This document shows, in pieces, positions 16,541 through 30,751 of a DNA stretch of 64,000 nt. The position numbers were made by a program, and so were the translations under genes. Origin of the DNA: Jezberella montanilacus (GTDB lineage: Bacteria; Pseudomonadota; Gammaproteobacteria; Burkholderiales; Burkholderiaceae_B). How positions within the stretch are numbered: position 1 is the stretch's first letter; each line of letters opens with the position of its first letter. A model generated the notes under the pieces. That model did not search any database, had not been told where the DNA came from, and worked only from the letters and a program-made list of their open reading frames with translations. Location: assembly GCF_003003055.1 (NCBI RefSeq), contig NZ_PVTV01000014.1, positions 124,001 through 188,000 on the forward strand, read 5' to 3'.

Positions 16541-16952
16541 GGAGGCCTTTAAGGGATAAGAAAGCCCTCCGGCGTAGAGATGCAGACTTATATGTCGCGT
16601 CTCCGTCTGGATCGCGAACGACATTGTACCGTTTGCTTTTTTGTCCCTCGGGTAACTGGTTGCTGATCCTTTTTCAGCAAGACACCGTCGTATCCCTGCA
16701 CCAGGTGGTTGTGATTTTTTCGCCTGTTGTTCTCAGCATTTATTTAATACTGTCACCCACTATTGTGATTCTGACCTTTCTGCTGAATGAACCGAGCGCC
16801 TCTGTGCGCACTGTGCTGGTCTGACCGACCTAAAACCTTGCGCGCCTGTCTATGGCGCGAGGCCTGTCTTGTTCGTTTGAGTGCTTCGCCCCTGGTTTCC
16901 CGTGGTGGCTTGTCGCCTTTGCGATTTGCCAATAGAAACGGAGAAACCACAA
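16541..16952 (+). promoter_or_regulatory. Long structured 5' leader of rne
   Basis: A gap of about 410 bases with no convincing gene. Hairpins visible by eye: 16541-16570 (GGAGG/CCTCC and CTTT/AAAG separated by one C-C mismatch, 10-base loop) and 16577-16603 (GAGATGC/GCGTCTC with an inner GAC/GTC). A third, near 16842-16858, pairs GCGCC with GGCGC. In E. coli RNase E cleaves its own leader to autoregulate, and hairpins there are the recognition element. The equivalent role here is inferred. A TTG-started frame of 66 codons inside (16624-16824) has no coding support. Confidence 0.5.
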
Positions 16953-19874
16953 ATGAAACGCATGTTGTTTAATGCAACGCACCAGGAAGAACTGCGCGTT
17001 GCGATCGTTGATGGCCAAAAGCTCATCGACCTCGACATTGAAACCGCCGGCCGCGAACAGCGCAAAGGCAACATCTACAAAGCAGTCATTACCCGCATCG
17101 AACCCGGTCTGGAAGCCTGCTTCGTGAACTATGGTGAAGAGCGCCATGGCTTTCTGCCCTTCAAAGAAGTCGCACGATCCTATTTTAAAGAGGGTGTAGA
17201 TGTTCGCACCGCCCGGATTCAGGATGCGCTGAAAGAGGGTCAAGAGATTATCGTCCAAGTCGAAAAAGAAGAGCGCGGTAACAAAGGCGCGGCTCTGACG
17301 ACTTTTATTTCTCTGGCGGGACGTTATTTAGTTCTGATGCCGAACAATCCACGTGGTGGCGGTGTCTCACGTCGGGTAGAAGGTGAAGATCGTCAAGAAC
17401 TCCGTGAAAACATGGATCAGCTCAATATTCCCCAAGGGATGAGCATCATTGCACGGACGGCTGGTATTGGTCGCTCGGTTGAAGAGTTGCAGTGGGATCT
17501 GTCCTATCTGATGCAACTGTGGACAGCGATAGATGGGGCGGCTAAAGAAAATGCAGGCCCGATCCTGATTTATCTTGAATCCAGCCTGGTCATCCGCGCG
17601 ATTCGTGATTATTTCTCGCCTGATATTGGTGAAATCCTCATTGATACAGACGACATTGCGGACCAAGCGAGTGCTTTCATGAGCGTGGTCATGCCTGACA
17701 ACGTCTCCCGCGTGAAGCGATATCAGGATGATGTCCCCCTCTTCTCTCGTTTTCAGATCGAACATCAGATTGAGACGGCCTACTCGCGCACGGTAGACCT
17801 GCCCTCAGGCGGCTCAATTGTGATCGATCATACAGAGGCGCTCGTTGCAGTGGACGTCAATTCTGCTCGCGCTACGCGTGGTGCCGACATTGAAGAAACT
17901 GCACTGCGCACCAATCAAGAAGCTGCAGATGAAGTAGCCCGCCAGTTACGTTTACGTGACTTGGGTGGTCTGATCGTGATCGATTTCATCGACATGGAAG
18001 ACACCAAGAATCAGCGCTCGGTCGAAAACCGTCTGCGTGATGCCCTGCATTTTGATCGGGCACGCGTGCAAATGGGCAAGATCTCGCGCTTTGGTCTCAT
18101 GGAGCTCTCACGCCAGCGCCTGCGCCCTGCTCTGAACGAAGGCTCTCACATCACCTGCCCTCGTTGTAACGGCACCGGCGTGATCCGCGATGCTGAATCA
18201 AGTGCCTTGCAAGTCCTGCGTCTGTTGCAGGAAGAGGCCATGAAAGAAAACACCGCAGCGGTTCATGCTCAGGTGCCTGTCGATGTCGCGACCTTCCTGC
18301 TCAACGAGAAACGCAGCGACATCACCAAGATCGAGTCACGCCTTAAAGTGAACCTGATCCTGATCCCCAACCGTCACCTTGAAACCCCGCATCATCACAT
18401 TGAGCGTCTGCGCCACGATGATCCGCGTCTGGAAGACGTGAAGACCAGTTTCGATCTGGTGGATGCGCCTTCAACAGACATGAGCTGGGCACCAAAAGAG
18501 CAAGAAGTTGCCACCAAACCCGAAGCGTTGGTTAAGGGGATTACCCCTGCCAAGCCAGCACCCGTATCAACACCGTCACCGCGTGCGGTAAAAGCTGCGG
18601 CTGAACAGGCGAAAACCGAAGCCCCTGGTTTCTTCAAGCGTCTGATGGGATGGTTGACCGGAGCAAGTTCAACTGACGTGAACCCAGTTGTAGCACCTGC
18701 GCCTACCGATACACGCGACCGACCCAGACGGGAAGGCGGCGATCAACGCCGTGGCAACGGTCGAAATCAACGTGGTCGTCGCAATAACGAACCGAGAGCT
18801 GAGAATCGCAGCAACGTTAATGGTGAGGAGGCTTCAACAGAGAACAACCGCCGGCCCCAGCAAAAGCAAGCTCGTGATGACGATCGTGCCAGCGCAGCTC
18901 AACGTGCCCCTGCAGCCAACAACGGCGAGCAAAGCGAAGAGCAAGGTTCCCGCAATAACCGAAACCGTCGCGGTCGTGGCCGTAACCGTCGTGAAGACGG
19001 CCAAGATCTGGCACGCAGCGGTGCGGATGAAGAAAAATTGCAAGGACTGAATCCAGCTCAGGCAGCTCAGTCCGATGACTTCACTAACACCCACGCTGAC
19101 ACCAACTCGGACGAACTAGACTCATTGCGTGATGATGCTCAAGCAGGTGAACAGAGCGATCCAGAACGTAAACGCCGTCGTCGTCGCAGCCGTCGTGGTC
19201 GTCGTCCCAATGAAGAGGGACAAACGGCTCAGGGTTCAGAGGAGCAACCAGCCGATCACGATCAAGATGTTGATGATTTTGATCATTCAAGCTCGGGATC
19301 GTCGGTTGCCTCAGGTAGCGAAAGTCACGTTGTCGCAACACATCATGCTCAGCCATCGCAAGACTCAATGGCGTTCTCGGTACCCTCTTCTGTTTCAATC
19401 ACACCAGTGACTGCACAAGCCGTGCAGGCTGTGGTCGCTGACGCGACATCACAAGAAACTGAAGCCACCGTGGCAGCACCAGCTGAGACTGCATCCATTG
19501 CAGCGGCTGCGCCAGTCGCTGTCGTAGTGGACGAGCCAGTCTTGACCAGTCTGCAGCAAGTGATGACAAAGCCTGTTATCGCTGAACCAGTTGTTACGGT
19601 AGCTGTGGTCGAATCGCCTGTTGCGGCTGCGCCAGTTGTTACGACGCCAGTACCGTTGGTTATGCCAGCCCCTGCACCTGTTGTAGACAAAGCAACTCTG
19701 CACGCTATTGTGCAAGCCGCTGGGTTAACCTGGGTCGAAAGCAATCAGGATCGTGTTGCGCAAGCGCAGGCTAGTTTGCAAGCGACGGTGGCACCGACAC
19801 TTGGACGTGCGCCCAAGCCAGCTGTGATCGTATCAAGCGAACCGTTGGTGCAAGTTGAGACCAACCAGAACTAA
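16953..19874 (+). CDS. rne: Ribonuclease E
   Basis: Endoribonuclease that initiates mRNA decay and processes rRNA and tRNA; its tail scaffolds the degradosome. 973 aa from ATG 16953, with GGAG about 9 bases upstream. The N-terminal half has the S1 domain (KAVITRIEPGLEACFVNYG) and the DNase-I-like catalytic site (VAVDVNSARATRGADIEET and LIVIDFIDMED with both metal Asp). It also has the zinc link CPRCNGTG. From about residue 520 the tail is low-complexity: Arg/Asn/Glu-rich RNA-binding segments (GRNQRGRRNNE, RKRRRRRSRRGRR), then an Ala/Val/Pro-rich stretch. The extreme C-terminus ends in a short conserved-looking GLTWVESN block. Confidence 0.97.
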   Translation: MKRMLFNATHQEELRVAIVDGQKLIDLDIETAGREQRKGNIYKAVITRIEPGLEACFVNYGEERHGFLPFKEVARSYFKEGVDVRTARIQDALKEGQEIIVQVEKEERGNKGAALTTFISLAGRYLVLMPNNPRGGGVSRRVEGEDRQELRENMDQLNIPQGMSIIARTAGIGRSVEELQWDLSYLMQLWTAIDGAAKENAGPILIYLESSLVIRAIRDYFSPDIGEILIDTDDIADQASAFMSVVMPDNVSRVKRYQDDVPLFSRFQIEHQIETAYSRTVDLPSGGSIVIDHTEALVAVDVNSARATRGADIEETALRTNQEAADEVARQLRLRDLGGLIVIDFIDMEDTKNQRSVENRLRDALHFDRARVQMGKISRFGLMELSRQRLRPALNEGSHITCPRCNGTGVIRDAESSALQVLRLLQEEAMKENTAAVHAQVPVDVATFLLNEKRSDITKIESRLKVNLILIPNRHLETPHHHIERLRHDDPRLEDVKTSFDLVDAPSTDMSWAPKEQEVATKPEALVKGITPAKPAPVSTPSPRAVKAAAEQAKTEAPGFFKRLMGWLTGASSTDVNPVVAPAPTDTRDRPRREGGDQRRGNGRNQRGRRNNEPRAENRSNVNGEEASTENNRRPQQKQARDDDRASAAQRAPAANNGEQSEEQGSRNNRNRRGRGRNRREDGQDLARSGADEEKLQGLNPAQAAQSDDFTNTHADTNSDELDSLRDDAQAGEQSDPERKRRRRRSRRGRRPNEEGQTAQGSEEQPADHDQDVDDFDHSSSGSSVASGSESHVVATHHAQPSQDSMAFSVPSSVSITPVTAQAVQAVVADATSQETEATVAAPAETASIAAAAPVAVVVDEPVLTSLQQVMTKPVIAEPVVTVAVVESPVAAAPVVTTPVPLVMPAPAPVVDKATLHAIVQAAGLTWVESNQDRVAQAQASLQATVAPTLGRAPKPAVIVSSEPLVQVETNQN

Positions 19875-20007: not shown

Positions 20008-21279
20008 TCAATCCCGCCCTGCGATCACCTCCTTCGCTTTCAAGCCCGCGATTTCGTCATCCGCCAAACCCAACCAGTCCTGCAAGATCTCATCCGTGTG
20101 CTGCCCCAGCAGGGGTGGCGCATAGCGATAATTGACTGGACTTGCTGACAAACGAATCGGGTTGGCAATCAAAGGAACCTCTTTGCCCAGACCGTGCGGC
20201 AACTCGAACCGAGTTTGTAGGTGCTGCACTTGGGGGTGAGCCATGGCTTGTGCATAGTCATTGATGGGCCCAGCTGGCACCCCGGCTTTGAGGAAGACCT
20301 CCTCCCAATGTGCTCGTGGTTGCTTACACATGACTTCTGCAAAACACGCTCGCAAAGCGGCCAAATTGACCATGCGAGCCGGATTATCAACAAATCGAGG
20401 ATCGGTTGCCCACTCTGGGTGACCCAGCGCTTTAGACAAAGCTGAGAACTGACCCTGATTCGCACTGGCGATAATGATGTCACCATCTGCACAAGGGAAC
20501 ACACCGTAGGGTGTGATGGCAGGCGATGCGTTACCGGTGCGCTGAGGGATCTTGCCCGTATTCATGTAGTTGGACAATTGCCCAGAGCTCAAGGCCATCG
20601 ACACAGCAAGTAATGACAAATCGATGTACTGACCTTTGCCTGTCTCATCGCGATGATGCAAGGCTGCCAAGATAGACACCGAGGCATACATCCCGGTAAA
20701 CAAATCGATGAGCGGAACACCCGCACGCTGAGGTCCGCCACCAGGCAAATCATCACGCTCACCCGTGACGCTCATCAAACCGCTGAGACCTTGAAACAAA
20801 TAATCGTAACCAGGTCGTTTAGCAAAAGGTCCATCCTGACCAAAACCCGTCACCGAGCAATAGATCAGACGCTCGTTCAAAGCCGACAAGGAGGCATAAT
20901 CCAGACCATAACGAGCTAAATCACCGACCTTGTAGTTCTCGATGCAAATATCAGCTTGCAGCGCGAGTTGACGAATCAGTACTTGTCCCGCGGGCTTAGA
21001 CAGATCAACCGCCATCGAACGTTTGTTTCGGTTGGCCGATTGAAAATACGAAGATTCGCGCGTCGGTACCCCGTTTGCGTCAGGCACCCAAGGTGGTCCC
21101 CATTGTCTGGATTCATCCCCTGGACCAACACGCTCTATCTTAATAACATCAGCGCCAAGATCACCCAGAAGTTGCGTACACCAAGGTGCGGCAAGAACCC
21201 TAGATAGATCCAGCACTCGCAAAGCTCGCAAAGGCCCAGTTGCCTGTTTTTTTTGACCTACATTTTGCTGATCACTCAT
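20008..21279 (-). CDS. Class III CoA-transferase (CaiB/BaiF family)
   Basis: Transfers CoA between carboxylic acids. The 423-aa protein has the family N-terminus LRVLDLSRVLAAPWCTQLLGDLGADVIKIE (contiguous motif from about residue 20), NKRSMAVDL, GYDYLFQGLSG and the probable catalytic Asp192 in PLIDLFTGMYAS. It also has a C-terminal PLLGQHTDEIL. Four bases after the Bug-receptor gene and last in the atu-type operon, so it may activate the imported acid as its CoA thioester in place of the acyl-CoA ligase found in Pseudomonas atu clusters. Substrate specificity is inference. Confidence 0.9.
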   Translation of the reverse strand: MSDQQNVGQKKQATGPLRALRVLDLSRVLAAPWCTQLLGDLGADVIKIERVGPGDESRQWGPPWVPDANGVPTRESSYFQSANRNKRSMAVDLSKPAGQVLIRQLALQADICIENYKVGDLARYGLDYASLSALNERLIYCSVTGFGQDGPFAKRPGYDYLFQGLSGLMSVTGERDDLPGGGPQRAGVPLIDLFTGMYASVSILAALHHRDETGKGQYIDLSLLAVSMALSSGQLSNYMNTGKIPQRTGNASPAITPYGVFPCADGDIIIASANQGQFSALSKALGHPEWATDPRFVDNPARMVNLAALRACFAEVMCKQPRAHWEEVFLKAGVPAGPINDYAQAMAHPQVQHLQTRFELPHGLGKEVPLIANPIRLSASPVNYRYAPPLLGQHTDEILQDWLGLADDEIAGLKAKEVIAGRD

Positions 21280-21283
21280 TTTT

Positions 21284-22318
21284 TTAATGTGTCTCCATGC
21301 CCGCAGCTTTAATTACTTTACCCCAACGCTCAGTATCGCGCTGTTGCAGCACATGAAGATCATCGGGTGTGCCAACGAAATCCAGTAAGCCTCGCGTCGC
21401 TATGTATTGCTGACCTTCCTCGGACTGCATCGCCTTATTGATCAATGCGTTCATACCAGAGACTGCTTCTGATGGAGAACCTGCTGGCAGCCAGACTGCC
21501 AGCCAGGAAAAGAAGTCGTAGCCGTCATAGCCTTGTTCAGCGATGGTGGGAACTTCAGCTGCGGTCGATACTCGATTAATAACGGTGACACCTAAGGGCA
21601 CGACCTTACCAGCACGCACCTGCGCCATCCCAGTCACAATATCTGCGACGTAGAAGTCAATCTGACCACCTAACAAATCTGTCATCGCCTGAGGGCTCGC
21701 TTTGTAATTCACATTGACCGCGTCAAACCCAGCCTGAGATTTAAGTTGTTCAATCGTGACTCGGCTTGCCACGGCAGCACTGCCATAACTGAGTTTGCCG
21801 GGGTTAGCTTTTGCAAATGCGACAAACTCCTTTAACGATTTCGCGGGAATCTTCTCAGGATTCGCAAGCAATACATAAGGGACTCGAGCAAACGTCGCTA
21901 CTGGCGCAAAATCTTTCTCTGGATCGAAGCTCAATTTCCTATACAAATGCACATTCGTTGAATGCGTTGAATTGCCCGATACCAAAGCGGTGTAGCCGTC
22001 CGCTGGGGATCTCGCGACAGCTTCAGCGGCTATGTTGCCGTCTACGCCGGGCCGATTTTCAACGATAACTGACTGGCCCGTATAACGCTGCATCATCTCA
22101 CCAATAAAGCGAACCGTGCTGTCTGTTGCCGATCCTGCCGCATAGCCGACAATGAATTTAACAGGCTTAGTCGGCCACGCAGTGTTCGATTTTTGCGTTT
22201 GTGTCTGGGTTGATGCTGGACTTTGTGCTTGCGCCAACACCGCATCACTCAGAAAAATCAAAGCTATTGCTGTCACAAAAACTTTACAGGTATGACGAGC
22301 CAAGGATGTCGCATCCAT
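21284..22318 (-). CDS. Bug-type periplasmic solute-binding protein (TctC family)
   Basis: Binds a carboxylate in the periplasm. The 344-aa protein has a signal peptide (cleavage near AVLAQAQ), then WPTKPVKFIVGYAAGSATD and VIVENRPGVDGNIAAEAVARSPADGYT, the classical Bug signature. It continues with DFAPVA and VPLGVT. No TctA/TctB membrane partner is in the window, which is usual for the large orphan Bug sets of Alcaligenaceae. Lies between atuA and the CoA-transferase, suggesting that its ligand is the pathway acid. GGGAG precedes ATG 22318 by about 9 bases. Confidence 0.93.
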   Translation of the reverse strand: MDATSLARHTCKVFVTAIALIFLSDAVLAQAQSPASTQTQTQKSNTAWPTKPVKFIVGYAAGSATDSTVRFIGEMMQRYTGQSVIVENRPGVDGNIAAEAVARSPADGYTALVSGNSTHSTNVHLYRKLSFDPEKDFAPVATFARVPYVLLANPEKIPAKSLKEFVAFAKANPGKLSYGSAAVASRVTIEQLKSQAGFDAVNVNYKASPQAMTDLLGGQIDFYVADIVTGMAQVRAGKVVPLGVTVINRVSTAAEVPTIAEQGYDGYDFFSWLAVWLPAGSPSEAVSGMNALINKAMQSEEGQQYIATRGLLDFVGTPDDLHVLQQRDTERWGKVIKAAGMETH

Positions 22319-22381
22319 TTTTGTCTACTCCCTTTTATATTTTTAATTTGTTACACAGCTGCTGACGAATATCTCACAAAC

Positions 22382-24181
22382 TCAATGCTTTTTCATACAA
22401 CCTTGATCTAATAGTAAAAGCGGTACTTTCACAGGCATATCAAGCAACATCTGCGCAAATGATTTCGCCAGTGGATCGGACCGCAAGCTTGATGTCCCTC
22501 CGCCGCCCAAGGCTTGATGCATAAGAAAATTCATCCCATTGATACCTGGCAAATCGAAACGCTCAACCTCGCCTTCAACCAGATGTTTGAAATAGTCTTT
22601 GACGGTTTCTCTCGTCAATTGCTGTCGCAAGATGGGAAGCAGAGCAACATGTCGTGCAATCACGCCAATGTTTGCATCATTACCCTTATCACCACTGCGG
22701 GCCCAGGCGATCCGCACCAAAGGCACTTCGACATCTGAGGTGTCGTATGTTTGGCGAGCTGCCGTGACAACGACTGAAGGCGGTTCAAGCTGAACCACAG
22801 TCAACGGCTTTTCTATGTCAAGCGTCTGATCCGCCAAGCGCACCTGCACACGCAATTTAGACTTATCGATCAAAAACGAAAATAACCTGATGACTGGTTG
22901 AATATCTGCCCGACCGCCAAAGTGGCTACGCGTGCCAGGTCCCATCGAGGTTCCAGCAGAGATGGACTCTTTCTGTAAAAAAACCAATGCCTTTGCCTGA
23001 GGATGGCGAGCGCCAATTCTCAATACCAACTCGCGAGAGTCGTGCACACGTGCGTTTTCACCGTATTGGGATTCACAACCGAGCAGCTCTACTCGATTTT
23101 CGCTGTAGTCATCAAAGCCACTGGCCTCAAGTTGTCTGCGAGTGCGAGCAAGCAATGCCTCAGCCGTTTTTTTTGCTTTCGCGACTGAATCAATCCCTCT
23201 GATTAATTGATGAGTCGTGATCTGATAACCATCCTGCCACGTGACGCTCACTTTGTAATATTGAGAAGGCGGACGCCCAAGGGCACCATCGATCCGTACC
23301 CGACCCGCATCAATCTGACGGATCCGCACTTGTCTGAAGTCACACACCACGTCCGGTAGTTCATAACGAGCAGGATCACCGATCTCATACACCAGTTGTT
23401 CTGCTCCGCAACCGACACAAACCAGACCACCCGTATTGTCAGGCTTGACCAAATCAAAGCTTCCATCCTCACTTACTTCAAGTACGGGGTAGCCGATATT
23501 GGCCCAGTCCGGCACGTCTTGCCAGTCCGTGAACAAGCCACCCGTGGCTTGGGCACCACACTCAATCATATGGCCGGCCAAACTGCCTTGCGCGAGGCGA
23601 TCCCAATCGTGCCAATGCCAGCCAAATTCATGTGCCAAAGCGCCCAGAGTCAAAGCACTGTCAACGCAACGTCCTGTCACGACGATCTGCGCACCCTCAG
23701 ACAGTGCTTTAGCGATTGGTTGTGCGCCCAGATAGGCGTTGGCAGACAGCACCTTTGCAGGAAGCGACTGGCCACTCTGCAGATCAGTGACACCCTGTTC
23801 GCGCAGGCCGTCAACAAGAGGTGATACGTCATCACCCATTACGATTGCTACTCTGGGTTCAAGACCTAATTCCAGGGCACAAAGCGTGATGGCTTGGGCA
23901 CAAGCCTCTGGGTTCAGGCCACCCGCATTTGCAATCAATGTGACGCCTTGATTCATGCACGGTTGCAAGTACGGCTTAATCACAGCGCTCACAAAATCGG
24001 TTGCATAACCCAGCTGTGGATCTTTCATTCTGGCACGTTGCAAGATCGACATCGTCGTCTCAGCCAGGTAATCAAAGACGATGTAATCGAGCTGAGGCAC
24101 AGTCAATAATTGCGGCATCGAGATTGTGGAATCACCCCAGAATCCACTTGCTCCGCCAATGCGTACGACCTTTTTGCTCAT
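22382..24181 (-). CDS. atuA: AtuA family protein (DUF1446 plus C-terminal AtuA-like domain)
   Basis: Required for acyclic terpene growth in Pseudomonas, exact reaction unknown. The 599-aa protein starts VVRIGGASGFWGDS, and has DYIVFDYLAETTMSIL, IANAGGLNPEACA and VVTGRCVDSALTLG in the DUF1446 part (about 1-450). It ends with a separate C-terminal domain (about 485-590) containing RIAWARSGDKGNDANIG. The length agrees with Pseudomonas AtuA. Its start overlaps the end of the biotin carboxylase gene by 4 bases. Confidence 0.88.
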   Translation of the reverse strand: MSKKVVRIGGASGFWGDSTISMPQLLTVPQLDYIVFDYLAETTMSILQRARMKDPQLGYATDFVSAVIKPYLQPCMNQGVTLIANAGGLNPEACAQAITLCALELGLEPRVAIVMGDDVSPLVDGLREQGVTDLQSGQSLPAKVLSANAYLGAQPIAKALSEGAQIVVTGRCVDSALTLGALAHEFGWHWHDWDRLAQGSLAGHMIECGAQATGGLFTDWQDVPDWANIGYPVLEVSEDGSFDLVKPDNTGGLVCVGCGAEQLVYEIGDPARYELPDVVCDFRQVRIRQIDAGRVRIDGALGRPPSQYYKVSVTWQDGYQITTHQLIRGIDSVAKAKKTAEALLARTRRQLEASGFDDYSENRVELLGCESQYGENARVHDSRELVLRIGARHPQAKALVFLQKESISAGTSMGPGTRSHFGGRADIQPVIRLFSFLIDKSKLRVQVRLADQTLDIEKPLTVVQLEPPSVVVTAARQTYDTSDVEVPLVRIAWARSGDKGNDANIGVIARHVALLPILRQQLTRETVKDYFKHLVEGEVERFDLPGINGMNFLMHQALGGGGTSSLRSDPLAKSFAQMLLDMPVKVPLLLLDQGCMKKH

Positions 24182-26199
24182 GCCGATTCCTTGGCCAACG
24201 CCTCAGCCTTGACTTTGATTCGAACGAGTACGCGACCAGCCATTACTTGATCGCCAGCACGACACGACACTTCTTCGATTTCACCATCAATCTCAGCGCT
24301 TAGCGTGTGCTCCATTTTCATTGACTCGATCACAATCAGAGGATCGCCAGCTTTAATAGTTTCGCCAACCACCGCAGACGTGCGGGCAATTCGCCCCGCA
24401 AGCGGCGCTCTCACCGTCCCGGCGTTAGCCGACAGTGTGCCGTTCTTGGCCTCATGCGTATGCGTCAAGTCGACTGCAAAATAAAAAGCGCCTTTGTATT
24501 GCAGCCATAATTGTCCCTGACCGTCCCTTTCGAAACGCACGTGATAACGCTGTTCATTTAAATCAAACGCGAGGATCGACTGCGATTGATCAGTATGGGT
24601 CAAACTAATCCAAGCGTCGCGACCTTCAGGCTTTACATTCACGACCCCAGGATGGCTCGAAGCATCCACAGTCCAATGCCGAGGCGTCAAACCATCGATT
24701 GCGACTTTGACTATGTGATTCAAGCCAATGGCATTCGTCCAACTGCTACCCGTCACCGCCTTGGTAAAGATCGCCGCTGCGGCAACTTCGACGACCTCTG
24801 GTGTCTCGCGTCGAGCTAAGGCAACATCATCAAAACAGTCGTCGATAAAGGTGGTCGTGGCTTGCCCGTCTTTGAACCGTTGATGCGCAAGACACGTCTG
24901 CAAAAACGTCAAATTGTGCTTAAACCCCAATAACACAGTCTGCTGACAAGCCTGAATCAGTTTATTGATACACGCTTCACGATTGTCACCGTGCACCATA
25001 ATCTTGGCCAACATCGAATCGTAAAAAGCTGACACCTGCGAGCCTGCACGCAATGCAGAATCAGTGCGCGCCATGGGTGCGGGCTCCCAAGCCAAGACCC
25101 TGCCTGTTTGAGGTAAGAAGCCGGCTGTCGAATCCTCTGCGCACAGACGAACCTCCATCGCATGACCTGACCAAGTCACCTCTTCTTGCGTCAAGTTAAG
25201 GGGTCGACCCATTGCAACCTGCAATTGCCATGCAACCAAATCCAGCCCGGTCAATAATTCAGTAACACCGTGTTCAACTTGAAGACGGGTATTCATCTCC
25301 ATGAACCAGAAATTGCCGTCTTCACCTAGCAGAAACTCAAGCGTGCCAGCACCGACATACTGAATGGCTTTACCTGCAGAGACTGCAGTTTGGCCCATTC
25401 TGCTTCGCAACACAGCATCAACGGCTGGTGACGGTGATTCTTCGATCAATTTTTGATGACGTCGTTGAACCGAGCAATCACGTTCACCAAGATGGATAAG
25501 GTTCCCGTGTTGATCACCAAAGATTTGTACCTCAACGTGTCGAGCATTCAGGATGGCTCGTTCAAGAATTAGTTGATCCGAACCAAAGGAAGCTAGGGCC
25601 TCTGATCGGGCTGAGTGCAACGCTGCCAGCAGATCTTGTTTGGCTCGCACCAATCGCATTCCACGCCCACCACCCCCGGCTGCAGCTTTGACCATCAGAG
25701 GGAAACCGATGCGCCCGGCTTCATCGACTAAGGTCTGATCGTCTTGTGCGAGGCCTTGATAACCAGGTATACAGGGCACACCCGCGGCAATCATGACGTC
25801 TTTGGCCTCTGCCTTGTTACCCATCATTTTGATGGCTGTCGCTGAGGGTCCGACAAATACGAGACCTGCCGCGGCGACAGCCTCCGCAAAGTCAGCGTTC
25901 TCTGCTAAAAAACCATAGCCAGGATGAACCGCTTCGGCACCACTTACTTTGGCTGCATCGATAATTTTAGGGATAGCTCGATACGACTCACTCGCTGCAC
26001 TCCCCCCCAGGCAGATAGCCTCATCCGCGTAAGCTACATGAGGGCTGTCGCGATCCGCCTCTGAATAGACTGCGACCACGCGCAATCCCATTCGACGGGC
26101 GCTGCGCATAATGCGCAACGCAATCTCCCCTCGATTAGCCACTAACAGGGTGTTAAACGTAGGTGTCATGCCAAACAATTCCGGTGTCGTTTTCATCAA
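24178..26199 (-). CDS. atuF: Biotin carboxylase/biotin carrier subunit of an acyl-CoA carboxylase (AtuF/MccA type)
   Basis: Carboxylates its own biotin with bicarbonate and ATP, then hands it to the carboxyltransferase subunit. The 673-aa protein has the biotin-carboxylase N-domain (LVANRGEIALRIMRSARRMG near residue 17), the ATP-grasp domain with KAAAGGGGRGMR and LQVEHGVTE, and a linker. The C-terminal biotinyl domain has Lys628 in ESMKMEHT. Whether the acyl substrate is geranyl-, 3-methylcrotonyl- or another CoA cannot be settled by reading; AtuA next door favours the geranyl type. Confidence 0.9.
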   Translation of the reverse strand: MMKTTPELFGMTPTFNTLLVANRGEIALRIMRSARRMGLRVVAVYSEADRDSPHVAYADEAICLGGSAASESYRAIPKIIDAAKVSGAEAVHPGYGFLAENADFAEAVAAAGLVFVGPSATAIKMMGNKAEAKDVMIAAGVPCIPGYQGLAQDDQTLVDEAGRIGFPLMVKAAAGGGGRGMRLVRAKQDLLAALHSARSEALASFGSDQLILERAILNARHVEVQIFGDQHGNLIHLGERDCSVQRRHQKLIEESPSPAVDAVLRSRMGQTAVSAGKAIQYVGAGTLEFLLGEDGNFWFMEMNTRLQVEHGVTELLTGLDLVAWQLQVAMGRPLNLTQEEVTWSGHAMEVRLCAEDSTAGFLPQTGRVLAWEPAPMARTDSALRAGSQVSAFYDSMLAKIMVHGDNREACINKLIQACQQTVLLGFKHNLTFLQTCLAHQRFKDGQATTTFIDDCFDDVALARRETPEVVEVAAAAIFTKAVTGSSWTNAIGLNHIVKVAIDGLTPRHWTVDASSHPGVVNVKPEGRDAWISLTHTDQSQSILAFDLNEQRYHVRFERDGQGQLWLQYKGAFYFAVDLTHTHEAKNGTLSANAGTVRAPLAGRIARTSAVVGETIKAGDPLIVIESMKMEHTLSAEIDGEIEEVSCRAGDQVMAGRVLVRIKVKAEALAKESA

Positions 26200-27368
26200 G
26201 CGGGGCGTTTAGGCAAAATACCCATGTTCTTGCAAATAATCTGCAACATAACTTCATCTGCGCCACCTCCAATCGAAATTAAGCGCAAATCCCGATAAGC
26301 ACGCGAAACGGGGTTGTCGAGTGTGAAGCCCATCCCACCCCAATACTGCAGACACGCATCGGTGACTTCGCGACAGAGACGGCCGACCTTGAGCTTAGCC
26401 ATCGACGCTAACTGAGTCATATCCTCGCCAGCCATGTGAGTATCAGCCGCGCGATAGACCAGTGAACGAAGCAATTCGACCTCAGTCTTCAACTCAGCCA
26501 ATCTGAAGTGCACCACCTGATTGTCAAGGATCGGTCTGCCAAAAGCCACGCGATCACGTGTGTAGGCGATTGTTTCATTGATACACATGTCAAGTGCTGT
26601 CACCCGCCGTGCAGCGGCAGACAAGCGCTCTTCCTGAAACTGCATCATTTGATAGATGAAACCCTTGCCTTCTTCACCGATCAAGTTACGCTGTGGTACT
26701 CGCACCTCATCAAAAAAGATCTGAGCTGTATCAGACGACCACATCCCGATCTTATCGATTTTCTGGACAGTCACTCCTTTTGCGCGCTTGCCATTCTCTT
26801 TAAGTGGTACACAGAGCAATGATTTGCTGCGATGCGGCGTGTCGCTTGAGGTGTTCACTAACAAGCAAACCCAATCGGCTTGCGTGCCATTGGTGATCCA
26901 CATTTTGGATCCATTGATCACATAATCATCGCCGTCTTTGCGAGCGTGGGTCTTGATCGAGGCCACGTCAGAGCCCGCACCCGCCTCAGATACCCCGACC
27001 GAAACCACATTTTCACCGGAAATTGCGGGCGCAAGAAAATTTCGTTTTAAATAGTCAGACCCAAATTGAGTTAAAGCTGGTGTCGCCATGTCGGTTTGTA
27101 CAGCAAGCGCCATACTGACTCCTTGCGCGGCGATGTGACCAATTGCTTCGCAAAAGGCGATTTCAAACGAATAGTCCAAGCCAAGGCCGCCGTATTCAAC
27201 TGGTTTGTGAATACCCAGATACCCGAGCTTGCCCATCTTGCCGAACACTTCATGAGCAGGAAAAATCCCTGCCCGCTCCCATTCGTCCACATGAGGGTTA
27301 ACTTCTTTATCAATAAACTGTCGCACGCTGTCCTGCAGTGCAATGTGCTCGCTGGTGTAATGCATCAT
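26196..27368 (-). CDS. atuD: Acyl-CoA dehydrogenase (AtuD-like)
   Basis: FAD-dependent alpha,beta-dehydrogenation of an acyl-CoA; in Pseudomonas AtuD acts on citronellyl-CoA. The 390-aa protein has the VSEAGAGSDVASIKT and YVINGSKMWITNG flavin/substrate motifs near residues 125-160, RVAFGRPI, and the C-terminal QYWGGMGFTLDNPVSR segment with YRD.R.. that precedes the usual FAD loop. The end overlaps the biotin carboxylase start by 4 bases and the start is 22 bases after the carboxyltransferase gene. Confidence 0.87.
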   Translation of the reverse strand: MMHYTSEHIALQDSVRQFIDKEVNPHVDEWERAGIFPAHEVFGKMGKLGYLGIHKPVEYGGLGLDYSFEIAFCEAIGHIAAQGVSMALAVQTDMATPALTQFGSDYLKRNFLAPAISGENVVSVGVSEAGAGSDVASIKTHARKDGDDYVINGSKMWITNGTQADWVCLLVNTSSDTPHRSKSLLCVPLKENGKRAKGVTVQKIDKIGMWSSDTAQIFFDEVRVPQRNLIGEEGKGFIYQMMQFQEERLSAAARRVTALDMCINETIAYTRDRVAFGRPILDNQVVHFRLAELKTEVELLRSLVYRAADTHMAGEDMTQLASMAKLKVGRLCREVTDACLQYWGGMGFTLDNPVSRAYRDLRLISIGGGADEVMLQIICKNMGILPKRPA

Positions 27369-27390
27369 GTCTCCTTGATTGTTTTAACTG

Positions 27391-29016
27391 TTAAAACCGG
27401 GCAACGCCATACTGAACGCGATTGGGTGTTCGCGCCTGCGCTTCACGACACGTGGCCAAAGTCAGCTCAAGCACTCGACGGGTTTCTCGCGGATCGATGA
27501 GTCCATCATCAAGCATCAAACTACTTGTATAAATAGCCCCAGACTGACGCTCAAAATTATCGATAATGTCCTGCTTTTGTCGAGCTAGGGCGGCACGGTC
27601 CGGTTCAACACCTCGACGGGCTGCAACCCCCAACGCGACAATCTCCATCGTGTCCGCTGCCTGCTGTCCGCCCATGACTGCAGTTTTTGCATTTGGCCAA
27701 CTGAACACAAAACGAGGACCAAACGCACGACCACACATCCCATAATGTCCGGCACCATAAGACGCCGCACACAAAAAGGTAATTTGCGGGACTCGAGCAT
27801 TGGATAGGGCTTGGATCATTTTCGCGCCGTGCTTGATCATCCCTGCTTCTTCAGAAGCGCGACCAACGATAAAACCGGTCGTGTTCTGTAAATAGACAAT
27901 TGGCGTACCAGCCTGATCGCACAGCTGAATAAATTGCGCAGCTTTAGTTGCCCCTTGCGGATCAAGCGAACCGTTATTACTGATGAAAGCAACGGCGTGA
28001 CCTTCAACAAAGGCTTGTATACAAAGCGTAGCTGAGCCATACCCCGCTCGAAACTCAGTCAAGGCAGACCCATCGACGATTCGAGCAACCACTTCGCGCA
28101 TGTCAATTTGCTTGCGAGGATCAGTTGGCATGATGCCCGCGAGCTCATCACTGTCAAACAATGGCTTGGTAAACATTGGTTGGCTTTGAAGCTGCTTGTT
28201 ACGGTTCCAGTCCAGATTGCGCACGATATCCCGGGTCAGCGTAATAGCGTGAGCGTCGTCTTCAGCCACAAAATCCGCCAAGCCCGATACAGTCGCGTGC
28301 ATATCGGCACCCCCCAGGTCTTCTTCGGTTGCGATTTCTCCTGTTGCTGCTTTGAGCAAGGGCGGCCCTGCTAAAAAAGCCCGAGCGCGACCGCGCACCA
28401 TCACCACGTAATCGGACAAACCAGGCAAATAAGCGCCGCCGGCTGTGGATGAGCCGTGCACCGCAGAAATAACAGGTAGCCCAGCAGCAGACAGCAGGGC
28501 CAGGTTGCGAAACATCCCCCCGCTATTAACAAAACGTTCGACACGGTAACTGCGCAGGTTTGCGCCTGCGCTCTCAACCAGTTGAATAAACGGTAGATGG
28601 TTTTCAAGAGCAATATCCTGACAGCGCATAATTTTGCGACCCGTCAGATTTTGCATTGCTCCTGCTTCAATACCAGAATCATTCACCACCACCATGACGC
28701 GAACGCCGTGAATGAAACCAATCCCGGCAATCACTGCGCTACCAGGGATACTGGTGGCAGGATCAGGATTTTCGATACCACAGTAACCGGCCAGGCTCAT
28801 CAGCTCAAGAAACGGCTGACCCGGATCAAGCAACCTGGCGAGTCGCTCTCTTGGTAATAACTGTCCTCGCTTAGCGAAACGATCCGCCGATCGCTGCGAA
28901 GCAAGCATCGTACGCTTGTGCAAGGCAGTAACCTCATCAATCAGCGCTTGCGTGGTTGTACGCTGCTCAACATAGGAATCTGAAAACGTATCAATGGACG
29001 TCGAGAACACTTGCAT
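27391..29016 (-). CDS. atuC: Carboxyltransferase beta subunit of an acyl-CoA carboxylase (AtuC/MccB type)
   Basis: Transfers the carboxyl group from biotin to the acyl-CoA. The 541-aa protein has two crotonase-like halves: VVVNDSGIEAGAMQNLTGRK and VESAGANLRS..FVNSGGMF in the first, VAFISNNGSLDPQGATKAAQF and GFIVGRASEEAGMIKHGAKM in the second. FSWPNAKTAVMGGQQAA follows. This is the architecture shared by methylcrotonyl- and geranyl-CoA carboxylases. First gene of the minus-strand atu-type operon, read from the promoter at 29064-29092. Confidence 0.9.
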   Translation of the reverse strand: MQVFSTSIDTFSDSYVEQRTTTQALIDEVTALHKRTMLASQRSADRFAKRGQLLPRERLARLLDPGQPFLELMSLAGYCGIENPDPATSIPGSAVIAGIGFIHGVRVMVVVNDSGIEAGAMQNLTGRKIMRCQDIALENHLPFIQLVESAGANLRSYRVERFVNSGGMFRNLALLSAAGLPVISAVHGSSTAGGAYLPGLSDYVVMVRGRARAFLAGPPLLKAATGEIATEEDLGGADMHATVSGLADFVAEDDAHAITLTRDIVRNLDWNRNKQLQSQPMFTKPLFDSDELAGIMPTDPRKQIDMREVVARIVDGSALTEFRAGYGSATLCIQAFVEGHAVAFISNNGSLDPQGATKAAQFIQLCDQAGTPIVYLQNTTGFIVGRASEEAGMIKHGAKMIQALSNARVPQITFLCAASYGAGHYGMCGRAFGPRFVFSWPNAKTAVMGGQQAADTMEIVALGVAARRGVEPDRAALARQKQDIIDNFERQSGAIYTSSLMLDDGLIDPRETRRVLELTLATCREAQARTPNRVQYGVARF

Positions 29017-29063
29017 AAGGTGACGCTTTGCCTCTAAGATTATTTATAGTTTATTTGAATTAA

Positions 29064-29092
29064 AATATAATACAGTTGTATTATTTCGTCAA
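29064..29092 (-). promoter_or_regulatory. Sigma70-type promoter of the atu-type operon
   Basis: On the minus strand TTGACG (29092-29087), exactly 17 spacer bases, and TATATT (29069-29064). The spacer and -10 are covered by the palindrome at 29067-29084. On the plus strand the same stretch offers TATAAT (29066-29071) with a weak TTTATA (29043-29048) 17 bases upstream, which would serve the regulator gene. Confidence 0.7.
29067..29084. promoter_or_regulatory. Palindromic operator, probably for the adjacent TetR regulator
   Basis: Perfect inverted repeat ATAATACA-GT-TGTATTAT, 18 bases. It lies between the -35 and -10 of the catabolic operon and over the -10 of the regulator, so one bound dimer would block both. 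Binding is inferred from position and symmetry. Confidence 0.7.
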
Positions 29093-29120
29093 ATATACCT
29101 CCTACGCCTTTGACAATAGA

Positions 29121-29879
29121 ATGAGCAGAAAAAAGCTAGCGCCACCAGACAAACAGTTTTCGAATTCAGACGAGGCATCACCACCTCAGACTCGCTCACT
29201 CGACACAAAACTTGAGCTGCTGTTAGCAGCTGAACAACTCTTTGCGTTAAATGGCCTGTTGGGCGTATCGATGCGGCAGATCGTCTCGGCATCGAATCAA
29301 CGGAATGCTTCGACGATTCATTATCACTTCGGTTCTCGCGATGCATTGATTTATGCAATCTGCGAGTACCGGATACTTAGTATCGAACAAGATCGCGCAC
29401 GCCGACTGGCAGAGTATTTGCAGTCACCTGACAGGGGCTCTAAGCGAGTGATTGCTCTGCTTGAAGCCTTGCTTTGGCCGAGCGCGCAACCGATTATCGA
29501 CAGTCATGGGCAAAGCTATTTCAGACGTTTTCTCGCCCATAGCTTTGTTAGCGATACGGTGGATCTACCTGGTTTTATCAAAGGCCGTTTCGACGCAGGG
29601 ATGCGGCAAATAGCCGGGCTCTTGCAGCAACATCTCACCCATTTATCCGAAGCAAGCTTTCATATTCGGTGGGCGTTGATGATTCGGTCAGTGACCTATC
29701 TGTTAGCCAATCTGGAAGCTCGAGCAGAGGCAACCTCCAAGTCAAAAGCAGCCGCACTGATCAAGCGTGGCGTGAATGACATTGCCGTGAGCTTCGCCGG
29801 GATGTTGCAAGCGCCTGAACAAGAACCCAACGTGACTGATGTGCCGCTGATAAAAAAATCCACCACAAAGAAGAAGTGA
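29121..29879 (+). CDS. atuR: TetR-family regulator (AtuR-like)
   Basis: Probable repressor of the divergent operon. 252 aa from ATG 29121; the frame is open upstream to a TTG inside the operator, which is unlikely as a start. The helix-turn-helix is at about residues 35-80: LLAAEQLFALNGLLGVSMRQIV and ASTIHYHFGSRDALIYAI. The rest is a helical ligand/dimerisation domain with a Lys-rich C-terminus. Followed after 8 bases by the enoyl-CoA hydratase gene, so regulator and hydratase are likely one transcript. Confidence 0.85.
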   Translation: MSRKKLAPPDKQFSNSDEASPPQTRSLDTKLELLLAAEQLFALNGLLGVSMRQIVSASNQRNASTIHYHFGSRDALIYAICEYRILSIEQDRARRLAEYLQSPDRGSKRVIALLEALLWPSAQPIIDSHGQSYFRRFLAHSFVSDTVDLPGFIKGRFDAGMRQIAGLLQQHLTHLSEASFHIRWALMIRSVTYLLANLEARAEATSKSKAAALIKRGVNDIAVSFAGMLQAPEQEPNVTDVPLIKKSTTKKK

Positions 29880-29887
29880 GACGAATC

Positions 29888-30751
29888 ATGACGAAGTCGA
29901 TCAGTCCGGTAGCGACCGCTAGCCCCGTTCAAGAAGAAAACATCCAAGACTTTTTGCTACTGAGTTTCAATCAACCAGAAGCGCGGAATCCACTCGGACC
30001 AGAGGTCATCGCCGCCCTGACCAGTGCAATTGATCGCGCCGAAGCTAACTCAAGCATCCGGGCGGTCATCCTTAGAGGCTACGGCGCGGTTTTTAGCGCT
30101 GGTGGCAATCTTGGTAATTTTCAAGATCGATTGGCTGCCCCGATGAATGCTGACGGCAGCGACCCGATTGCAAAGAGCAATCGCGCGTTCGGTTTGTTTT
30201 TAGAAAAACTTAGAAAATTCCCTAAACCAGTTGTTGTCGCCGCGCACGGAGCGGCGATGGGTGGTGGTGTGGGCTTGGTCTGTGCCGCTGATATTGCGAT
30301 TGTTTGTGCCGATACGAAATTTTGTTTCACAGAGACCAAATTAGGTTTAATACCTGCCCAGATTCTTCCTTTTGTCGTCGAGCGTATCGGGGGCAAAGCT
30401 GCCCGACGTTTAATGCTGAGCGCAGAGAGATTCTCTGCCGCAGACGCCTTACAAATCGGGCTAGTCGATTTCGTTGCGCCAAACATGGACGCGTTACGTG
30501 ATCGCCTCGTTAGTGTCCTGGACAATATTAGTGCTTGCGCACCCAATGCCGTGATGGCGACTAAACGACTCTCCTACCGTAACGACTGGGAGACATCTGA
30601 ACAGGGGCTCAGCCAGCTACTTGACGACTGCGCAGTCGCGTTTGCAGCTGCAATGCGTGATGAGGCGAGCGAAGGTCTGACCGCTATGCGCGAGAAACGA
30701 ACCACCAGTTGGGCAAAGCGCTTCCCGAGAGAAGCTCTTGATCAATGGTGA
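29888..30751 (+). CDS. Enoyl-CoA hydratase/isomerase family protein (AtuE-like)
   Basis: Crotonase-fold enzyme; in the atu pathway the matching step is hydration of isohexenylglutaconyl-CoA. 287 aa from ATG 29888. It has the oxyanion-hole segments VFSAGGNLG and AAHGAAMGGGVGLVCAADIAI, FCFTETKLGLIPAQI and a C-terminal helix set. One of the two usual catalytic glutamates is at the FTETKLGL position. A GTG four codons upstream overlaps the regulator stop and is an alternative start. Convergent with accD, 25 bases apart, with no visible terminator. Confidence 0.85.
   Translation: MTKSISPVATASPVQEENIQDFLLLSFNQPEARNPLGPEVIAALTSAIDRAEANSSIRAVILRGYGAVFSAGGNLGNFQDRLAAPMNADGSDPIAKSNRAFGLFLEKLRKFPKPVVVAAHGAAMGGGVGLVCAADIAIVCADTKFCFTETKLGLIPAQILPFVVERIGGKAARRLMLSAERFSAADALQIGLVDFVAPNMDALRDRLVSVLDNISACAPNAVMATKRLSYRNDWETSEQGLSQLLDDCAVAFAAAMRDEASEGLTAMREKRTTSWAKRFPREALDQW

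Follow-up and report, generated by a model that had tools for sequence, protein, structure and literature searches.

A probable acid-entry variant of a known pathway

The operon described here, from a 64,000-nucleotide stretch of Jezberella montanilacus DNA (the window), is best explained, with moderate confidence, as a form of the acyclic terpene utilisation (Atu) pathway that starts from the acid. The genes of this pathway are known for taking a methyl branch off citronellol- or geraniol-like acids. The organism, a betaproteobacterium, probably feeds on a ready-made free acid. The operon is a real and recurrent variant of an already known pathway.

The eight genes between positions 20008 and 30751 were confirmed at the coordinates given in the first-pass annotation, and belong to the families named there (Table 1). 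Homologues of AtuA, AtuC, AtuD, AtuE and AtuF are all present together. Six genes form a minus-strand operon in the order carboxyltransferase (CT), acyl-CoA dehydrogenase (ACAD), biotin carboxylase (BC), AtuA, Bug receptor and CaiB/BaiF CoA-transferase (CaiB), with successive intergenic spacings of 22 bp (CT-ACAD), -4 bp (ACAD and BC overlapping), -4 bp (BC and AtuA overlapping), 63 bp (AtuA-Bug) and 4 bp (Bug-CaiB). On the plus strand, opposite the operon, lies a divergent pair formed by the TetR and hydratase genes, which overlap by 4 bp. The cluster is flanked by housekeeping genes, RNase E (16881-19874) on one side and accD and trpA on the other. The BC gene probably starts at the ATG at 26196, which was favoured over the TTG at 26199 on reading the open reading frame translation.

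Table 1. Features of the cluster, in window coordinates.
Feature	Position	Strand	Evidence
Class III (CaiB/BaiF) CoA-transferase, SUGCT-like subfamily, candidate activating enzyme	20008..21279	-	PF02515
Periplasmic Bug/TctC-type solute receptor	21284..22318	-	PF03401
AtuA, proposed acetate-releasing 3-hydroxy-3-alkylglutaryl-CoA lyase, natural fusion	22382..24181	-	PF07287 + PF23544
Biotin carboxylase/biotin carrier (alpha) subunit, AtuF-like	24178..26199	-	Pfam BC and biotinyl domains; ESMKM
Acyl-CoA dehydrogenase, AtuD (citronellyl-CoA dehydrogenase) type	26196..27368	-	Identity to Acinetobacter AtuD; FQEERL Glu
Carboxyltransferase (beta) subunit, GCC-type, AtuC-like	27391..29016	-	PF01039; PDB matches; pocket signature; tree
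Perfect palindrome ATAATACAgtTGTATTAT, candidate TetR operator	29067..29084	.	Palindrome search
TetR-family regulator	29121..29879 (ORF called from TTG 29076)	+	PF00440/PF17939
Enoyl-CoA hydratase, AtuE/isohexenylglutaconyl-CoA hydratase-like	29876..30751	+	PDB match; identities

In the proposed pathway, the Bug receptor would bind a free isoprenoid acid with a 3-methyl branch, similar to citronellate or geranate, in the periplasm. Once imported, the acid would be converted to its CoA ester by the class III CoA-transferase, with succinyl-CoA, for instance, as the donor. The AtuD-type dehydrogenase would then introduce a C2-C3 double bond, the geranyl-CoA carboxylase (GCC)-type enzyme would add CO2 to the beta-methyl group (gamma-carboxylation), the AtuE-like hydratase would add water, and AtuA would cleave off the carboxymethyl arm as acetate. 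The resulting 3-oxoacyl-CoA would enter beta-oxidation and then the separate leucine-type methylcrotonyl-CoA carboxylase (MCC) pathway. The steps from desaturation through carboxylation and hydration to acetate release are those expected of the enzyme families; the uptake and CoA exchange steps we infer, as we do the substrate, the CoA donor, the Bug ligand and the permease.

The atuABCDEF clusters of Pseudomonas and Acinetobacter, for which an Acinetobacter plasmid cluster (L098) served as the yardstick, have in common with the window AtuA, the GCC-type subunits, an AtuD-type ACAD, a hydratase and a TetR regulator. The window operon differs in lacking AtuB, in adding the Bug receptor and the class III CoA-transferase, and in carrying its hydratase gene on the divergent arm with the regulator. 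Among Betaproteobacteria, Thauera linaloolentis also has an Atu route that involves GCC, AtuE, and AtuA as an acetate lyase, but its cluster, unlike the one in the window, starts from linalool and carries an isomerase, geraniol dehydrogenases and a proposed AtuH ligase (PMC4847356).

The carboxylase groups with geranyl-CoA carboxylases

A second leucine/isovalerate pathway of the MCC type would run its chemistry in the same order, with carboxylases that are homologous overall. The hydratase, 38% identical to Acinetobacter AtuE and 37% to Marinobacter LiuC, is nearly as close to one pathway as to the other and is thus not diagnostic. Its second-best PDB match (4zu2) is a 'putative isohexenylglutaconyl-CoA hydratase', and it is 46% identical to the hydratase of the cluster on Achromobacter plasmid pA82.

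The carboxylase itself argues against the leucine reading. The best PDB match of the CT was the beta subunit of Pseudomonas GCC (5ikl_B, 559.8 bits), compared with 462 bits for MCC beta (3u9r_B). In a CT tree of 74 rows, built by a quick method with SH-aLRT values as the sole support and a PCC outgroup on a long branch, the GCC side, comprising 70 rows including the window CT, was split from MCC with a support of 99. In MCC beta the pocket Phe is preceded by a three-residue insertion, whereas GCC beta has Gly and no insertion (PMC4673880). The window CT lacks the insertion, does not group with LiuB and carries at the position of GCC Gly162 and MCC Phe191 a Ser, which is small and not Phe. Because this Ser replaces Gly162, the enzyme is classed as GCC-type and not as a proven GCC; most CT relatives have Gly at the position, a few have Ala and one other has Ser. 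The window clade is the sister of characterised GCC (~50% identity), and since the experimentally characterised enzyme falls outside the clade, geranyl specificity is not directly transferable and is at most presumptive. The BC subunit, with an ESMKM biotin site around residue 626, was 45% identical to Acinetobacter AtuF versus 43% to the MCC alpha subunit of the same genome.

Consistent with this placement, the ACAD is 61% identical to AtuD of the Acinetobacter plasmid cluster and 29% to isovaleryl-CoA dehydrogenases, with the Glu of its FQEERL motif aligned with the ERL Glu of the latter. The genome also encodes a separate carboxylase, 71% identical to Pseudomonas MCC beta and adjoined by an isovaleryl-CoA-dehydrogenase-like gene; with this MCC available, leucine can be degraded without the window carboxylase. 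Moreover, the cluster carries AtuA and not an HMG-CoA lyase. Judged by its sequence, the window carboxylase is not a leucine enzyme. The earlier assignment to the Atu/GCC type is backed by PDB matching, signature and tree, in which no grouping with leucine enzymes was seen. A leucine-pathway duplicate, set aside on the CT tree and the pocket signature, is a highly improbable reading of the operon.

AtuA has the fold of a fused citramalate lyase

The first-pass annotation reported the absence of an HMG-CoA-lyase-type gene and took it as grounds to doubt the substrate. No such gene is present in the cluster, but the absence does not extend to the genome, which has five HMGL-family genes, one of them 57% identical to Marinobacter LiuE. 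Nor is the missing gene a gap, since in the Atu pathway the lyase step is assigned to AtuA (PMC4847356). As a sign of another substrate it was rejected on that assignment together with the following structural matches.

A search with a profile built from 38 AtuA sequences recovered 9erq (E=1.7e-8), which belongs to the AtuA family and is named citramalate lyase subunit A. The AlphaFold (AF2) model of the window AtuA (pLDDT 91.5, pTM 0.91) matched chain A of citramalate lyase 9evf at E=2.7e-25 and its 105-residue chain B with a probability of 1.00, the E-value being weaker than for chain A. Predicted structure and profile thus place both the large- and the small-subunit fold of the citramalate-lyase type in AtuA, and the match of the model to both chains of 9evf identifies the window protein as a fused form of the two-subunit lyase. 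Citramalate lyase CmlA/CmlB (9erq, 9evf) is like AtuA in the fold of both subunits and in the acetate-releasing C-C cleavage of a tertiary alcohol; the window AtuA differs in being a single fused chain and would be expected to act on a CoA ester. AtuA is proposed to be an acetate-releasing 3-hydroxy-3-alkylglutaryl-CoA lyase. Literature searches on AtuA and citramalate lyase found nothing direct.

Two unfused versions of AtuA are encoded elsewhere in the genome (L102, C1:568040-570702; L101, C2:120539-124285), each with the large-subunit gene ahead of a gene for a small subunit, which matched the C-terminal domain of the window AtuA in a profile search. They may be enzymes of the citramalate-lyase kind that act on other acids. 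Downstream of each of the genome's three AtuA-family lyase genes, a Bug gene lies on the same strand within ~2.5 kb.

The Bug receptor and CoA-transferase recur with related carboxylases

The genome (3.16 Mb) contains 66 Bug and 20 CaiB genes, so that the mere presence of either in the operon proves little. Both could be passengers of a standard Atu cluster whose acid is activated by an unlinked ligase, a view to which the single TctA permease of the genome and the occurrence of one distant Bug homologue in a genome without a close carboxylase lend some weight. The pattern of inheritance makes it improbable. In a FastTree phylogeny, the window Bug grouped with a support of 99 with the operon-slot Bugs of L010, the nearest relative cluster, from a distant MAG (66% identity), and of four Achromobacter loci (47-48%), and none of the own-genome Bug paralogues that were fetched fell inside the group. 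The orthologues occupy the equivalent slot in L010 and in the four Achromobacter species, and their grouping agrees with that of the carboxylases of the same loci, whose CTs group with the window CT with a support of 98.

The CaiB subfamily (tree support 97) likewise recurs beside related carboxylases in several arrangements. Eight Limnohabitans-type loci have it downstream, whereas three Achromobacter loci and L020 have it upstream and on the opposite strand. Among the loci with enough flank, whose counts are not phylogenetically independent, an AtuB-type SDR and this CaiB subfamily co-occur in one of the 30 that have either: 17 loci outside the window clade have the SDR and no such CaiB, and 13 inside it have the CaiB, one together with the SDR. 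Together with the 4-bp gap between the window Bug and CaiB genes, these patterns indicate at the sequence level that the two are more than passengers, and their earlier description as genuine parts of the operon holds.

Consistent with acid entry in place of alcohol oxidation, as had been proposed from the gene content, a search of the whole genome found no AtuB orthologue. Its closest SDR shares 34% identity, compared with 52-60% for the carboxylase-adjoining SDRs of relatives, so that the absence of atuB reported for the cluster extends to the whole genome. The operon itself has no alcohol-oxidising gene, AtuB or other, and within it atuG and atuH are also absent. The contrast previously drawn with a ligase of the Pseudomonas cluster was too strong: the role of AtuH is no more than a proposal, and it is for FadD4, encoded outside the atu cluster, that activity on citronellic and geranic acid has been measured. 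In relatives other activation genes occur; on Achromobacter xylosoxidans A8 plasmid pA82 (L095, 11881-21466) the carboxylase is immediately preceded by an acetate-CoA-ligase-family gene, and a nearby gene is annotated as 2,4-dienoyl-CoA reductase, as expected for an unsaturated acid.

The assumed role of the Bug receptor in uptake was overstated. The window locus encodes the receptor without TctA or TctB of a tripartite tricarboxylate transporter, no permease gene was found near the operon, and the one TctA of the genome lies on another contig (C3:5813-7069). A shared permease, other transporters or sensing roles could account for the excess of Bug over TctA genes. Transport is favoured by the arrangement in Cupriavidus basilensis, in which the Bug gene adjoins TctA- and TctB-like genes (recognised by eye). 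Literature searches on operons combining Bug and CoA-transferase genes found nothing direct. Two further acyl-CoA carboxylase loci of the genome (L103, C7:26000-32000; L104, C1:448000-455000) each lie beside Bug and CaiB/BaiF CoA-transferase genes, hinting at a general carboxylase/Bug/CoA-transferase module in the lineage.

The CoA-transferase and the nature of the acid

The CoA-transferase belongs to class III by its PF02515 domain and by a catalytic Asp192 that aligned with the Asp of 4ed9 and SUGCT. Its best NCBIfam model was succinate-glutarate CoA-transferase, at 426.7 bits against a cut-off of 750, and it aligned well with human SUGCT. The same chemistry might therefore serve a different acid with a beta-methyl branch. 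Candidates include dicarboxylic or oxidised isoprenoid acids, such as one resembling 3-methyladipate or an omega-oxidised citronellate, and with these a SUGCT-like CoA-transferase and a Bug would naturally be paired. Bug receptors bind carboxylates, and solved relatives among the PDB matches include a terephthalate-binding protein; the Ser in place of Gly162 and a gene annotated as 3-oxoadipyl-CoA thiolase adjoining the pA82 cluster point the same way. Set against this are the identity of the ACAD to AtuD, whose named substrate is citronellyl-CoA (PMC4847356), and the score of the dicarboxylate CoA-transferase model, far below its curated cut-off. Such a substrate is possible but doubtful. The simple citronellate or geranate reading is weakened by the pocket Ser and the dicarboxylate flavour of the CoA-transferase.

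A palindrome in the divergent promoter region

The TetR gene was called from a TTG at 29076, which is probably not its true start. The next ATG, at 29121, leaves a promoter region containing a perfect 18-bp palindrome, ATAATACAgtTGTATTAT, between the CT gene and the likely TetR start, and the TTG is doubted for this reason. The palindrome is the sole site in the genome at up to two mismatches and, as a sequence feature, is a candidate operator of the regulator; a TetR repressor would control both arms from this one site. A palindrome search at the L010 cluster yielded unrelated G-rich repeats only. The TetR beside that cluster is 53% identical to the window TetR. No match was found between the window TetR and the regulator of the Acinetobacter plasmid cluster.

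Distribution and significance

Among the 199 other Burkholderiales genomes that were sampled, nine had a carboxylase of at least 57% identity. A Bug of the closest type (44% identical) occurred in one genome among 200 Burkholderiales sampled, and that genome has no such carboxylase. The clusters of Limnohabitans, Achromobacter and Cupriavidus resemble that of the window in combining GCC-type genes with the CaiB subfamily, a Bug or both, and vary in regulator type (IclR-like or TetR) and gene order; no published function for them was found in the literature. The related carboxylase of same-genus genomes falls on a separate branch and is accompanied by an HMG-CoA-lyase-like gene and by a CoA-transferase from a different subfamily, so these clusters were rejected as a direct template and the window version has a different history. 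At two same-genus loci (L107, 12486-15460; L109, 6337-9364), a probable IclR-type regulator, the other CoA-transferase subfamily and the HMG-CoA-lyase-like gene are divergent from the carboxylase genes.

Several observations count against the preferred acid-entry explanation: the Ser at a pocket position where most relatives keep Gly, the resemblance of the CoA-transferase to enzymes known for dicarboxylates, the location of the one TctA permease away from the operon, the absence of AtuA and hydratase genes beside the L010 cluster, and the fact that, in the 200 Burkholderiales sampled, the sole further Bug of this type belongs to a genome that lacks a close carboxylase.

A bolder proposal, which we advance tentatively and consider rather unlikely, is that Betaproteobacteria have a distinct form of the Atu pathway that begins with the acid. 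A CoA-transferase and a dedicated Bug would there take the place of alcohol oxidation and ligation, and a citramalate-lyase-type AtuA would release acetate from a branched isoprenoid acid that is not geranyl and may be dicarboxylic. The match of AtuA to both solved citramalate lyase chains gives independent support for its acetate-releasing role and makes the lyase step directly testable, including participation of a nucleotide, as structure 9evf contains ADP (together with pyruvate). The operon suggests a way in which Burkholderiales, freshwater Limnohabitans among them, could exploit branched isoprenoid acids while lacking the alcohol steps, and activation by CoA exchange would save ATP.
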